From assembly GCA_017406775.1 (NCBI GenBank), contig JAFQXV010000008.1, positions 1 through 35,379 of the forward strand: a stretch of DNA of 35,379 nucleotides. The letters are read 5' to 3'. Each line of letters starts with the position of its first letter. Positions within the stretch are counted from its first letter, which is position 1. Under the pieces are notes generated by a model. That model saw only the letters and a list, made by a program, of their open reading frames with translations, did not search any database and had not been told where the DNA came from. The translations under genes were made by a program, and so were the position numbers. Source of the DNA: Candidatus Saccharimonadota bacterium. Its GTDB lineage: Bacteria > Patescibacteriota > Saccharimonadia > Saccharimonadales > Saccharimonadaceae. Shown piece after piece: positions 368-33,950 of this stretch.

Positions 368-406
368 AAAAAATACCCCCCAAATGAATCTAGGGGGTAT
401 TTTTTA
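368..406. terminator. Bidirectional intrinsic terminator
   Basis: AAAATACCCCC (370-380) pairs with GGGGGTATTTT (393-403) across a short loop, with A and T tracts on both sides. It serves the plus-strand small gene and the minus-strand mnmA, whose stop codon (404-406) lies in the T tract. Confidence 0.9.
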
Positions 407-1639
407 TGCGATAATTCCACCGCCAAGGCAAATCTCGCCATCGTATAATACAGCCGATTGTCCCGAGGCCGGACGCTTAATTTTGTTATCAAAATAAATC
501 GTCTTGCCGTCAAAAGTGGCAGGGATTAATGGTGCACGGTGACGCAGGCGCACCAAGACCGGTGATTTGTCCAATTCGAGGGCATGTCCCGGACGACGAA
601 GCTCGCCGTCCGTGAACGAGCCACCCGTAAAGACGGGCTGGCAAGTGGGCCCGAGAATGGATAAATCACTGGTTCTAAGTATCACATCCTTTAGTTCTAG
701 CTCGTTAATCCATAAATTATCATCGTTCAGATTCTTTGAAACATAGACAATATTATTTTTAGTATCTTTTTTTACTACGTAATATGGCAAGCCGTCGTTA
801 ACTACGCCCTTTTCTCCGTCTAGGCACAGCCCATGACGCTGCCCAATTGTATAAAATATTGCCCCTTCATGATAACCCAACACGCGTTCAGATTCTATTT
901 CACGAATTTCGCCCGGATTAATCTCGATATACTCCTTCAAAAAATCTTTCATCCCTACATCACCCACAAAACAAACACCCATGGATTCTTTCTTGTAGGC
1001 ATTATGCAGTCCCCGCTCTTCCGCCAGCTTCTTCACCTCCGGCTTCTTTATCCCCCCAATCGGGAACAGTGTATGCGCCAGCGCCTCCTCGGAAATGCGA
1101 TAAAGGAAATAGGTCTGATCTTTATTATCGTCCACCGCCCTTAGTAAAACGGGGGCGCTTGAAGATGCTCTTCTCGGGACCATATGCTTGGCCGAACGGC
1201 CTTGAGTGTGTCCCGAGGGGGGCATCTCAAGCGCCAAAGTTCGCGCATAGTGTCCGGTGGCAATAAAATCAGCTCCTCTTTCCTTAGCTTTTTCAAAAAA
1301 GAGCTTAAACTTTATCTCCTGATTGCACATAATGTCTGGATTTGGCGTATTACCTTTTTTAAATTCGTCCAGCATATATTCAACTACTTTTTGACGATAC
1401 TCTTCTTCAAAATCCCAGACTTCAAAATTAATACCAAGTTTAACTGCTACCCGTTTAGCGTCGGCTAAATCCTCTGCCCAAGGACATTTCATGCCAGGAA
1501 GATCCTTAGACCAGTTTTTCATGTATACGCCAGTAACGTCGTAGCCCTGTTCCACTAATAGCATAGCCGAAACGCTAGAATCTACCCCACCGCTCATACC
1601 AACAAAGACTTTGGCGCCATGAAAAAAGGACTTACCCAT
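404..1639 (-). CDS. mnmA: tRNA-specific 2-thiouridylase MnmA, with two palindrome insertions
   Basis: MnmA adenylates and thiolates U34 of the Lys, Glu and Gln tRNAs, using sulfur from a cysteine desulfurase. The PP-loop GMSGGVDSS lies near the N-terminus, the first catalytic Cys is in NPDIMCNQ, the second in SMGVCFVGD, and GHYAR and DNKDQTYFL are also present. I start it at 1639 (MGKSFF), inside the desulfurase stop region (ATGGGTAA overlap); an upstream in-frame ATG at 1699 would add residues coded within the neighbour. At 411 residues it is about 40 longer than typical MnmA. The excess falls at two GC-rich palindromes translated in frame: 1154-1235, before LLRAVDDNKDQ, and 562-669, in the C-terminal beta domain. 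Both lie between recognisable motifs, so the enzyme is probably functional. Confidence 0.95.
   Translation of the reverse strand: MGKSFFHGAKVFVGMSGGVDSSVSAMLLVEQGYDVTGVYMKNWSKDLPGMKCPWAEDLADAKRVAVKLGINFEVWDFEEEYRQKVVEYMLDEFKKGNTPNPDIMCNQEIKFKLFFEKAKERGADFIATGHYARTLALEMPPSGHTQGRSAKHMVPRRASSSAPVLLRAVDDNKDQTYFLYRISEEALAHTLFPIGGIKKPEVKKLAEERGLHNAYKKESMGVCFVGDVGMKDFLKEYIEINPGEIREIESERVLGYHEGAIFYTIGQRHGLCLDGEKGVVNDGLPYYVVKKDTKNNIVYVSKNLNDDNLWINELELKDVILRTSDLSILGPTCQPVFTGGSFTDGELRRPGHALELDKSPVLVRLRHRAPLIPATFDGKTIYFDNKIKRPASGQSAVLYDGEICLGGGIIA
562..669. repeat. In-frame palindromic element G in mnmA 3' part
   Basis: The outer arms 562-590 and about 646-669 are imperfect inverted copies of each other (GTGATTTRTCCA outside, then TTC..GGGC). 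The inside holds two further hairpins: one with ACGGG/CCCGT (about 621-640) and one with GGACG/CGTCC (590-611). Its core differs from that of elements A-D. It is translated as part of MnmA without breaking the frame. Confidence 0.65.
1154..1235. repeat. In-frame palindromic element A in mnmA (core family 1)
   Basis: Arms 1154-1180 and 1210-1235 match as inverted repeats except for three mismatches and one gap. The 29-nt core at 1181-1209 has the inner stem GGCC-GAAC-GGCC and ends TTGAGTGT. It shares 22 of 29 core positions with the copy in tgt. Relative to the gene it is read antisense, yet the reading frame stays open. Confidence 0.85.
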
Positions 1640-2774
1640 TTCTTTTGACCCTTTCTTTTTCGGACTGTACGACTTCGTTAATAATCCTAGCCGCATCATG
1701 GATTTGTTCTTCTGTATTGGTTCTTCCTAGTGAAATACGAAGCGAACCGGCAATTTCGGAATCCGACAGGCCAATAGCCTTTAATACATGTGACCGTACT
1801 CCCTTAGATGTAGCACACGCAGCACCAGTAGAGACGTATACGCCCCTATCTTCTAACAAGAAAATCAACCTCTCTGCATCTAAACCATTATAGCATAAAA
1901 CAATAAAATTGTCAAGCGTATGCTTTTTATTGATTAGCTCATAATCTTTTAACTCTTGTAATAGAATTTTCTTCCAGCCAGCATACTTTTTGCGATTTCC
2001 GTTTACGTGCTCTTTGGCATGTTTTACTGCCGCAGCAAAACCAATTACGCCAGGCACATTTTCAGTTCCAGAACGCAACCCATTTTCCTGGCCGCCCCCA
2101 TAAGTTAAAGGTTTAAGTCTAACATCATGAGATACATACAACGCTCCTACACCTTTAGGTCCATAAACTTTAGCTGCATTAAGTGTTAATAAATCTACGC
2201 CCAGCCTAGATACGCTAATGTCTAATAAATTTAATGCCTGTGAAGCATCGGAGTGTAATAATAGTTGAGTTTTTACGCCTCGCTTCATGCGGTCGATTTT
2301 TGTTTCGCGGATTAAATTTGCTACCTCTGCAAGTGGCTGCAGAACGCCCAGTTCATTGTTAACCAAAGAGATTGAGATTAATTCGATTTGGTCGTTAATC
2401 TTTGACTTCAAATCACTTAAATCAATTATCCCGTTAGATAAAACCTTCACCTCTGTGCCGCCACATTGTTCTGCAATTCTTCGCACCGAATCATGTTCAG
2501 TTGCCAGATACAAGACGGATTCAGCATTTGCTTGAATCGCCGTAAATGCCAAATTATTTGCCTCCGTGGCGCCGGCCGTAATAACCAAATCAGAAGCTTT
2601 AGCCCCAATTGCATGCGCGATTGTGGCTTTGGCGGCCTCATAATCGGATGCTACTTTTTTTGCAGGTAAATATGCGGCGGAGGGATTAAAAAAAACATCG
2701 GAAAAATAAGGCATCATTGCCTCAAGCGCTTCCTTTAAAACTGGCGTAGCAGCTGCATGATCAAGGTAAATCAT
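1632..2774 (-). CDS. Cysteine desulfurase (NifS/IscS family)
   Basis: A PLP enzyme that takes sulfur from cysteine to form a protein persulfide. Seen: the N-terminal YLDHAAATPV, ATEANNLAF, the PLP-lysine segment NAAKVYGPKGVGALY (the usual SxHK is AAK here), and the active-site Cys in the long loop STGAACATSKG followed by RSHVL, which is the class I (NifS/IscS) loop. Length 380 is normal. It overlaps mnmA by 8 bp and is transcribed first, so its main job is probably to feed MnmA, as the YrvO-MnmA pair does in Bacillus. No IscU- or SufBCD-like scaffold gene is in the window. The start is 6 nt after an extended -10 (2781-2789) with no Shine-Dalgarno sequence. Confidence 0.93.
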   Translation of the reverse strand: MIYLDHAAATPVLKEALEAMMPYFSDVFFNPSAAYLPAKKVASDYEAAKATIAHAIGAKASDLVITAGATEANNLAFTAIQANAESVLYLATEHDSVRRIAEQCGGTEVKVLSNGIIDLSDLKSKINDQIELISISLVNNELGVLQPLAEVANLIRETKIDRMKRGVKTQLLLHSDASQALNLLDISVSRLGVDLLTLNAAKVYGPKGVGALYVSHDVRLKPLTYGGGQENGLRSGTENVPGVIGFAAAVKHAKEHVNGNRKKYAGWKKILLQELKDYELINKKHTLDNFIVLCYNGLDAERLIFLLEDRGVYVSTGAACATSKGVRSHVLKAIGLSDSEIAGSLRISLGRTNTEEQIHDAARIINEVVQSEKERVKRNG

Positions 2775-17575: not shown

Positions 17576-20426
<2,851 letters not shown>

Positions 20427-26213: not shown

Positions 26214-27947
26214 ATGCCTTTAGAATTACTTTACAACAAGATTAAAAACACTTTACGCAAAATCGATATGCGTCTAGAGCGTGCCAAATATGGCTATATC
26301 GATAAGCTCTCTAACTCTATTGAATATTTTGACGGTGGCTTATATGACGCCGTTTACGAAGCCTCTTGTAAATGGCCGCACAATGTCGCACTAGACTATT
26401 ATAATATGCAAATCACCTACAAAGATATGATCAAAAAAATCAACAAGGTGGCAGCTGCGCTTAAAGCAATCGGTGCCAAAAAAGGCGATAATATCACCAT
26501 TTGTATGCCTAATACGCCAGAAGAAATCTATATGTTTTACGCCGTAAACGAAATTGGCGCGGTGGCCAATATGGTGCACCCCCTATCTTCCGAAAAAGAG
26601 ATCGAAGATTATCTTAATCAAGCCGGTTCAAAAATTATGTTTTGTATTGATATTGCTTATACCAAGGTAGAGGCAATCATCAAAAATACTTCGATAGAGC
26701 AAGTTATTGTAGTATCAGCTATTCGCTCGATGGATTTTATAGTGCGAGCAGTATATAAGCTCACCAAGGGGCGCAAAAATCATATTAAAAAAGATCAATA
26801 TGTTACCACTTGGGATCGCTTCCTATTTAAAGCTAATAAATATATTGGCAATCCTCACACAAGGGTAGACTCAAACGATGCAGCCGTAATTATGTATTCT
26901 GGCGGTACCACCGGTAAACCCAAAGGCGTTATTCTCTCCAATTTAAATTTTAATGCTCAGGCGCTGGGCGCTAAATATCTAGTACCGGAACTTTTAAAGC
27001 CCTCCCACTCTTTCTTAACTTTCTTACCCAATTTCCATGCATTTGGGCTAGGCGTTTGTATCCATATGCCGTTATATTTTGGCTGCCGAGTAGTATTAAT
27101 ACCGCAATTTAACGCCAAAAAACTCCGCAAGTATATTCGTAAATACCACATCAATATCTTGGTTGGTGTGCCTACAGTGTTTGAGTATTTAACTAAACTT
27201 AAAATGGGTAACAAAGAATTAAAGGGCGTAAAGGGCGTAGTGTCGGGCGGCGATATGATCAGCCTTTCCGCTAAGGAGCGGATTAATGATTTTCTTAAAG
27301 CCCACGGCTCAAAAACAGTGATAGAAAACGGGTATGGCCTAACCGAGGCCTCGGGCGGATTTATCTTCTCGCCACGAAGTGTTGCCGAGGATCCAGATGC
27401 TATCGGCTATCCGTTGCCGGATAATGATGTAATTATTTTAGATCTTAAAACCGGCAAAAAAGCTGCTCCGGGTAAAGATGGCGAAATCGTGGTACGCGGG
27501 CTCTCCGTAATGAAGGGCTATCTAAATAAACCAGAAGAAACCAAAAAAGCTTTTGTAGAAGTAGGTGGCAAAAAATACTTACGCACCGGGGATATTGGCT
27601 ACAAAGACGAAAAGGGTGTTTTCCATTTTCGTTCCAGGTTAAAACGCATGATTATTTCTAACGGTTATAATATCTACCCCGCCAATATAGAAGATGTAAC
27701 CCTAAAATGCACGGCTGTAGCTAGTTGCGCGGTGGTTGGACGTGAAGATGATTTGCGCGGTCAAAAAGTAGTTGTGTTTGTTGTTCCTAAAGAAAATACC
27801 AGTGAAAGAGCTATTAGAAAAGAGCTAAACACTATTTACAAAAAATACCTAGCCAAATACGAAATTCCGCGCGAAATCCGCTTTCTACCTGAACTCCCCA
27901 AAACCAAATTAGCCAAAATCGACTTTAAAGCTCTCGAACAATTATAA
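26214..27947 (+). CDS. AMP-dependent fatty acyl-CoA/ACP ligase
   Basis: An acyl-adenylate enzyme that activates a free fatty acid with ATP and joins it to CoA or ACP. Seen: the P-loop-like MYSGGTTGKPKGVILS, NGYGLTEASGG (A5), LRTGDIGYKDEKGVFHF (A7), SRLKRMIISNGYNIYP (A8), and the final Lys in LPKTKLAKIDF (A10). Length 577 is normal for long-chain enzymes. A start rich in charged residues and the segment KNTLRKIDMRLERAKYG suggests membrane contact. Beside cdsA, pgsA and the PGP phosphatase it suggests that fatty acids taken from the host are activated here and built into phospholipid. Its stop codon is within the left arm of palindrome F. Confidence 0.92.
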   Translation: MPLELLYNKIKNTLRKIDMRLERAKYGYIDKLSNSIEYFDGGLYDAVYEASCKWPHNVALDYYNMQITYKDMIKKINKVAAALKAIGAKKGDNITICMPNTPEEIYMFYAVNEIGAVANMVHPLSSEKEIEDYLNQAGSKIMFCIDIAYTKVEAIIKNTSIEQVIVVSAIRSMDFIVRAVYKLTKGRKNHIKKDQYVTTWDRFLFKANKYIGNPHTRVDSNDAAVIMYSGGTTGKPKGVILSNLNFNAQALGAKYLVPELLKPSHSFLTFLPNFHAFGLGVCIHMPLYFGCRVVLIPQFNAKKLRKYIRKYHINILVGVPTVFEYLTKLKMGNKELKGVKGVVSGGDMISLSAKERINDFLKAHGSKTVIENGYGLTEASGGFIFSPRSVAEDPDAIGYPLPDNDVIILDLKTGKKAAPGKDGEIVVRGLSVMKGYLNKPEETKKAFVEVGGKKYLRTGDIGYKDEKGVFHFRSRLKRMIISNGYNIYPANIEDVTLKCTAVASCAVVGREDDLRGQKVVVFVVPKENTSERAIRKELNTIYKKYLAKYEIPREIRFLPELPKTKLAKIDFKALEQL

Positions 27948-28083
27948 TTAGCTTTTAGGGGTGTCCGGAGGTTACGACCGAGGATGAAGGGCGCGAGCCC
28001 CGTAACGGACCGCCCCTTGGGACGCGGACGACCCGAAGGGTCGACGGGCGCGAGCGACCCGTCCCCTAAAAGCTGATTATAAT
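27941..28083. repeat. GC-rich palindrome F between convergent acyl ligase and recR
   Basis: Arms 27941-27961 and 28063-28083 match at 20 of 21 positions and include the stop codons of both convergent genes, so both proteins end Gln-Leu. The interior is about 100 bp of very GC-rich DNA with sub-hairpins: GGTTACG/CGTAACG, GACCC-GAAG-GGGTC type, GGGCGCGAGC twice. It shares CCGCCCCTTnGGGACG with element E. It probably acts as a two-way terminator, but there is no T tract. Confidence 0.8.
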
Positions 28084-28682
28084 TGTGTCCGGTTTTCTAA
28101 GGCCGCACCAAGAGTAATTTGGTCTGCGTAAGACAAATCTACGCCCAGTGGCAACCCACGTGCCAATCTGGTTAACTTAAGTTCTGGATTTTGTTCATGG
28201 AGTAATTTTTCTAGCAAAAGCGCCGTAGATTCCCCCTCTACAGACGGATTGGTGGCAATAATAACTTCTTTTGCGTTATCGTTATTAACGCGCTTAATTA
28301 ATTCGCCAATGTGCAATTGGTCCGGTGTGATTCCGTCAATTGGCGAAATTGCCCCGCCCAGTACGTGATAAGTTCCTTTATAAGCTTTAGTTTGCTCTAT
28401 CGCATAGATGTCGAGTGGCTCCTCTACTACTAGTATTGTAGTCTTGTCCCGCTCTGGATTGGTATAAAATTCAGACATTTCCTGGTCTTTATCTATCAAT
28501 GCAAAAGTAATTGGGCAGGATTTTACGCCCGTATGTAAGTTTGCTAAGCTTTCCGCAATATTATTAGAAATTTGGGGGTTAGTTTTAAAAAGATAATAAG
28601 CATACCGTTCGGCCGTGCGTGGACCCACGCCAGGCAAAGCAGACAAAGCCTCTATTACGTTTTCTAAAGCCGAAGGCAACAT
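28077..28682 (-). CDS. recR: Recombination mediator RecR with a lost zinc finger
   Basis: RecR helps load RecA at gaps. Seen: the helix-hairpin-helix start ALSALPGVGPRTAERYAYYL, the Toprim core ILVVEEPLDIYAIEQT, GGAISPIDGITPDQL, IIATNPSVEGESTALLL, and the C-terminal LARGLPLGVDLSYADQITLGAALENR. Length 201 is normal. In the usual four-Cys zinc site only Cys56 remains: the CxxC is CPIT, and the second pair region reads MSEFYTNPERD. The protein must hold this fold without zinc. It follows ybaB by 2 bp in the classic ybaB-recR order. Confidence 0.96.
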   Translation of the reverse strand: MLPSALENVIEALSALPGVGPRTAERYAYYLFKTNPQISNNIAESLANLHTGVKSCPITFALIDKDQEMSEFYTNPERDKTTILVVEEPLDIYAIEQTKAYKGTYHVLGGAISPIDGITPDQLHIGELIKRVNNDNAKEVIIATNPSVEGESTALLLEKLLHEQNPELKLTRLARGLPLGVDLSYADQITLGAALENRTQL

Positions 28683-33699: not shown

Positions 33700-33950
33700 T
33701 CCTGTCTAAATATAGTATTAATATTATATTATATCTCATTTGGCGTAAAGTCAAGATATTTTTAAGAAAGTTTTCCACGGGAAAAACAGTGGTCGCCTGC
33801 AAAATGTTGTAAAAAATACATATAAACATAAGCAGTTATTTTAGGCAATGGAATGGTACCTTTGGGGACCGTAAGCTTGGGCGAGCGCCCTTGAGCGCGT
33901 CCCCAAAGGTACCATTCCATTGCTACTAAGTAAGACTACGTTTAGGCTTA
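33700..33950. other. Intergenic region with dnaX-operon promoter and palindrome D
   Basis: Right of 33690 the minus strand shows AGGA and an AT-rich promoter with TATAAT (near 33733) and TTGACT about 15 bp further upstream. TTTTCC-ACG-GGAAAA (about 33771-33785) is a small hairpin. Element D occupies 33845-33923. No coding sequence is seen. Confidence 0.55.
33845..33923. repeat. Perfect-arm palindromic element D (core family 1)
   Basis: Arms 33845-33869 and 33899-33923 are identical inverted repeats over all 25 positions. The 29-nt core at 33870-33898 has the inner stem GGGC-GAGC-GCCC, flanked by GTAAGCTT and TTGAGCGC, like copies A and B. It lies 27 bp past the stop of the DsbA-like gene. 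It has no T tract in either direction. Confidence 0.9.

Follow-up and report, generated by a model that had tools for sequence, protein, structure and literature searches.

Four palindromic elements in a 35,379-nt stretch of a Candidatus Saccharimonadota genome (contig JAFQXV010000008.1; the whole stretch is here called the window) are closely alike at their center, whereas the long arms that enclose this center pair with each other within a copy and differ from copy to copy. The question that they raise is how a family of hairpins can conserve its tip while each member carries arms of its own. The original prediction, made from the letters of the window, took the arms for host sequence copied in inverted form, as though insertion of one constant core duplicated a flank, or else for arms re-made by template switching, and saw in this possibly a new kind of mobile element.

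Four hairpins and their host genes

Re-reading of the coordinates and folding placed the four elements where that prediction had them, each as one long hairpin with arms of 22-30 bp. The elements and the genes that hold three of them are as follows:

404..1699, minus strand: mnmA, tRNA 2-thiouridine synthase, host of element A (NCBIfam NF001138, 375 bits), open through the insert
1154..1235, plus strand: element A hairpin, arms 1154-1175 and 1215-1235, tip 1176-1214, antisense to mnmA
17576..18667, plus strand: queA, host of element B (NCBIfam NF001140 and TIGR00113), open through the insert
18297..18390, plus strand: element B hairpin, outer base GCGCGGGTAGCC / GGGCAGGCCCCGCG, tip 18326-18361
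18661..19857, plus strand: tgt, tRNA-guanine transglycosylase, host of element C (NCBIfam TIGR00430, 403 bits, in two stretches), open through the insert
19193..19282, plus strand: element C hairpin, arms approximately 19193-19217 and 19260-19282, tip 19221-19257
33845..33923, plus strand: element D hairpin, arms 33845-33869 and 33899-33923, 25 nt each with 29 nt between them

The inner hairpins are exactly as first described, namely GGCC-GAAC-GGCC in A, GGCC-GAGC-GGCC in B and GGGC-GAGC-GCCC in both C and D. The perfect arms reported for D were recovered by a repeat finder independently of that reading (100% complementary, against 77% in B and 87% in C), and D is also the best match, at 96.8 bits, to the covariance model described below; no open frame spans it. 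Elements A, B and C all lie in frame within their genes, B and C on the same strand. The profile alignments are interrupted at the inserts: that of TIGR00420 to mnmA is split, its first stretch stopping at residue 155, where the insert starts, and that of queA breaks after residue 240, at B.

The window contains further palindromes. A second palindromic insert in mnmA (564-667) belongs to another tip class and is missing from several relatives. Positions 27938-28086 form a long palindrome with 24-bp arms (96% complementary), in the tip of which is a nested module, CCGCCCCTTGGGACGCGGACGACCCGAAGGGTCG, known from other tip classes, and the mostly intergenic segment 9784-9953 consists of nested palindromes, with 32-nt outer arms enclosing a hairpin with 28-nt arms.

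A conserved tip in two phyla

A 26-nt tip pattern, allowing up to three mismatches, occurs at 8 places in the 720 kb genome to which the window belongs and at none when read backwards. A, C, D and five further copies, 8 in all, were the basis of a covariance model that gives 25 matches at E<1 in this genome, about 20 of them below 1e-3; the number of copies is put at approximately 22. The excess of forward over backward pattern matches, together with the matches to the model, indicates that the tips are not due to chance and bears out the genome-wide enrichment of the core.

The tip has the form GGAC-C-R-TAA-GCTT-GGGC-GARC-GCCC-TT-GAGYG-Y-GTCC. This structure is conserved and asymmetric: its bulges are asymmetric, its inner hairpin has 4 bp, and a contact of the loop covaries. 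The single constant core first proposed stands as a conserved tip, but one with several subtypes: B is slightly different, the 3' side of its tip being one base shorter, another subtype has GGACATAAAGACTTGGCCAGAGCGGCCCGGAGCGTGCC, and in some a further hairpin is nested (CGCCCCTTGGGACGCG...). Unique arms also carry larger tips that are built differently. A base module resembling GGGTRGCCGAAATG / CATTCGGRCAGGRCCC recurs in the outer stems of distinct tip classes at L138, L137, L022 and L129, as though tips and stems were separate modules.

Across the internal loop, the pyrimidine at position 53 (Y53) covaries with the purine of the loop, with 28 A-T and 35 G-C combinations and no exceptions in Saccharibacteria, and 10 A-T and 16 G-C combinations and no exceptions in the Bifidobacterium genome G133, the copies being related so that Fisher values overstate the evidence; the covariation is weaker in genomes G060-G062. 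The same two states are present in both phyla. This contact suggests that the form which is recognized is a folded single strand, of either RNA or DNA. A known RNA family was rejected as an identity for the element, as Rfam gave no match above the gathering score in the window and, in five element loci searched with a permissive threshold, no convincing one.

The family extends to other Saccharibacteria of the genus: in a sample of 60 genomes it is present in 20 of the 36 from the same genus and in none of the 24 from sister families. When an exact 31-nt degenerate pattern was scanned over about 85,000 species genomes, the matches listed came only from Saccharibacteria, many of them from ruminant rumen and gut, and from three Bifidobacterium species with 14-25 matches each. 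The presence of the element in Bifidobacterium was unexpected; it is found in 69 of 112 genomes, with up to 41 copies in each, and in 0 of 296 other Actinomycetia (an even sample, under strict search filters). Such a patchy distribution is expected of a mobile element.

Spread on sequenced plasmids or on the viral contigs of IMG/VR was rejected, as neither collection yielded a match. One copy with well-paired arms lies near the end of an unannotated human-faeces scaffold labelled bacteriophage (L437 374-462, MT837054.1). In G133, oppositely oriented pairs of copies about 100-250 bp apart (L407, L408, L409, L411, L415, L420 and L424) resemble REP doublets, and near the Bifidobacterium copies at L222, L286, L293 and L348 there is a second repeat, GCTCCCCTCAGTCAGCTTCGCTGACAGCTCCCCTC.

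Insertion of the whole hairpin

The elements are about 80-110 bp in size, and of 131 copies gathered from the genus 77 are located in long frames that the element does not interrupt, 42 of them in sense and 35 in antisense orientation; the other 54 are not. Read in the sense direction, the tip has a stop codon (TAA or TGA) in two of its three frames; sense copies use the third frame and antisense copies use open antisense frames, as insertion followed by loss of the gene-breaking copies would give.

The proposal that a host flank is duplicated in inverted form when the tip inserts, so that one of the two arms is ancestral, would account for the copy-specific arms. However, both arms are missing from the orthologues of mnmA, queA and tgt that have no insert; element A, for example, is absent with both its arms from mnmA of G001, G009, G010, G020 and others. 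Relative to these empty genes, those of the genome under study (G000) are longer by about 93-105 nt in queA and 99 nt in tgt, where the hairpins are about 94-96 nt, and by about 66-78 nt in mnmA, where the hairpin is about 82 nt, with the qualification that the empty relatives are only about 80% identical and their loops are not aligned base for base, which blurs the exact junctions. The inserted length is nearer to that of a whole hairpin than to that of a tip with a single arm (~60 nt), which argues against an ancestral arm. The near-fixed length of the arms, their consensus and the common arms of a duplicate pair, all described below, also count against the duplication of a flank, and we regard it as highly improbable.

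In sister species, the corresponding loops of tgt, mnmA and queA carry other palindromes, which points to these loops being permissive sites; some tgt orthologues carry none. In Bifidobacterium the intergenic regions are too rearranged for junctions to be read at exact empty sites.

Arms that differ between copies and persist at their sites

Among 38 within-genome pairs whose tips agree to 90% or more, nearly all 5' arms are at or near chance similarity. In G133 there are 27 copies with 26-bp arms and 0-2 mismatches in each; one identical 35-nt tip occurs in 10 copies and another in 9, and in 84 pairs whose tips are identical, 9-21 of the 26 arm positions match. The claim that arms are specific to each copy thus holds even on identical tips, but the stronger statement that they share nothing does not. 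Their length is near-fixed, being 24-26 bp in most Bifidobacterium copies, they show a weak position-specific consensus within species, and their similarity within genomes forms a continuum that extends up to 22 of 26 positions. Copies that share arm sequences, which would be contrary to the original prediction, are confined to a few pairs, the clearest being the duplicates L110 and L114: 39 of their 40 arm bases are common, a mirrored G-C to A-T change is seen further out, and the similarity ends at the ends of the arms.

Other copies point in a different direction. L118 and L121 have about 60 identical tip bases and unrelated outer arms, and in G133 the common inner 8 bases of the arms carry no information on the remaining arm. 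This raises the possibility that arms are re-made at every copying, with the tip alone being inherited and an arm of ~25 bp and its complement being newly synthesised, for instance by synthesis that is hairpin-primed or switches template; each copy would then be born with perfect novel arms. Besides L118/L121 and the unlinked inner and outer segments, the identical-tip groups of G133, with their well-paired but differing arms, are in keeping with such an origin, as is the observation that pairing of the arms is best in those copies of G060-G062 whose tips are intact. Yet L110 and L114 have the same arms, partly common arms form a continuum within genomes, and a position-specific consensus at the level of species is unexpected of arms of arbitrary origin; on this evidence we consider re-making at every copying an unlikely alternative.

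The fate of arms at fixed sites was followed in 18 pairs of orthologous copies from closely related Bifidobacterium genomes, in which substitutions per site come to 0.046 in the tip, 0.069 in the arms and 0.062 in the flanks. Orthologous copies show 11 mirrored changes from one Watson-Crick pair to another in 433 arm pairs, against a mean of 4.1 and a maximum of 10 in 5000 shufflings; a separate tally of orthologous alignments counted 12 in about 480 arm pairs. Arms thus persist at their site and, as these changes exceed the null expectation, change there in matched pairs, be it through templated (template-switch) correction, selection for pairing or both. Template switching has been found to create and maintain hairpins in work that concerns RNA genes (PMC8794818). 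Of the template switching first proposed, the corrective form would give just such mirrored changes, while the form that re-makes arms at each copying keeps the low probability assigned to it above.

Copies also decay at orthologous loci. In G060-G062 the arms have more mismatches the further the tip has decayed (Spearman 0.33, P 0.01); in Saccharibacteria this trend is weak and does not reach significance. At one pair of orthologous Bifidobacterium copies from two species (L297 1501-1581 and L335 501-581) the tip is inverted between the same flanks. Apparent tip swaps at L295/L363 and L298/L361 were not used, as independent elements are equally possible given the common arm consensus.

A probable mobile element whose arms need only pair

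On balance, we favor as probable a non-autonomous palindromic mobile element of the RPE/REP kind, in which the tip is constrained and the arms need only pair and drift by mirrored changes. The tip would be the presumed target of a putative trans-acting protein, the arms would be required solely to pair over a near-fixed length of about 25 bp, and the whole hairpin would insert. The insertions that survive would be those that fall in tolerant protein loops and neither shift the reading frame nor introduce a stop. In place and over rounds of copying, the arms would then drift by mirrored changes, arising from intrastrand template switching that corrects one arm from the other, from selection for pairing or from both. 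Copies with decayed tips would stop spreading, and over many copy generations the arms would become unrelated with the tips unchanged. What we infer from these sequence comparisons is mobility by means of a trans-acting protein, the tip as the site that it targets, and how the mirrored changes come about.

Drift of this kind needs many rounds of copying and selection on the tip, a plausible requirement for a family that turns over and has tens of copies. Orthologous tips change nearly as fast as flanks, and therefore the identical tips with differing arms in G133 would need deep genealogies and tip selection, if the arms are not re-made. The absence of linkage between the inner 8 bases and the rest of the arm in G133, and the unrelated outer arms of L118/L121, also weigh against a mobile element with drifting arms, as do the facts that no transposase was found and that no insertion was observed between strains.

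A RAYT/Y1 transposase was rejected as the mover in Saccharibacteria, as PF01797 was detected neither in G000 nor in any other element-bearing genome among the 44 searched, with positive controls. A reverse transcriptase was likewise rejected, because G003, G004, G010, G018 and G020 carry elements and have no detected reverse transcriptase; genes for this enzyme are frequent in the genus and rare in the sister families of the sample. The genome of the window encodes one with a 309-aa gene upstream (L433 200-2397).

The tip could instead be conserved for a host function rather than for mobility. In the fullest version of this idea the hairpins are structured RNAs or DNA sites that serve the host and are under selection locus by locus, mobility being rare. 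The mirrored changes at fixed loci and the covarying loop contact are compatible with it, and so is a mild excess of G.U (139) over A.C (88) that Saccharibacteria show on the tip strand, also where the gene runs opposite, although this excess may partly be an artefact of the search model and is absent from Bifidobacterium (56 to 49). Copies in many unrelated genes and in both orientations, their decay at orthologous loci and their absence from many genomes of the same genus make selection at each locus distinctly unlikely. A purely mRNA-level role was rejected, as the G.U and A.C counts do not track gene orientation.

Relation to known palindromic elements

In the open-access literature that we searched for palindromic repeats in Saccharibacteria or Bifidobacterium we found no account of this hairpin family. 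It joins two gut lineages of different phyla, one of which has small genomes, and provides a case outside Rickettsiales of palindromic inserts being tolerated in frame in core genes, among them genes of tRNA modification. The patchy, mobile-like distribution agrees with the mobile element first envisaged, but in kind the family resembles RPEs and REPs.

Rickettsia palindromic elements (RPE) have the whole unit, including the arms, conserved between copies. Here only the tip is conserved and the arms are specific to each copy, being near chance similarity in most within-genome pairs whose tips agree to 90% or more. In other respects the two are similar, both being palindromic elements of about 100 bp that are found between genes and in frame in conserved protein genes, with no dedicated transposase known. 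RPEs measure 105-146 bp (PMC2229807), and the present elements fall slightly under that range; their hosts are Saccharibacteria and Bifidobacterium, and the comparison with RPEs is one of descriptions.

REPs carry GTAG or CGTC tags, are 20-40 bp long and in some cases have an associated RAYT, the stems of the CGTC families measuring 8-9 bp (PMC3733652). The present elements share with them the nature of palindromic repeats and, in Bifidobacterium, the head-to-head pairs; partly conserved bases at the foot of the Bifidobacterium hairpins (GGA/GTA before, GGTCA/GTCA after) may correspond to the tags, and are not evident in the Saccharibacteria copies. They differ in their variable stems of 24-26 bp, in their complex tip and in that the Y1 (RAYT) domain was not found in the element-bearing Saccharibacteria of the sample. 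With bacterial MITEs (PMC2229807) they have in common that they are small, non-autonomous, dispersed and fold into long hairpins; however, no terminal inverted repeats are common to the Saccharibacteria copies, no parent element was found, and no target duplication was demonstrated, the empty-site alignments being too divergent for a short one to be seen.

The hairpins attributed to template switching (PMC8794818) are similar in that perfect stems are maintained by mirrored changes, but those belong to RNA genes and the present ones to a dispersed repeat family. With dozens of copies per genome that have identical tips and paired but differing arms, this family constitutes a natural test of how pairing in hairpins persists, in which selection, templated correction and re-making on movement may be told apart.
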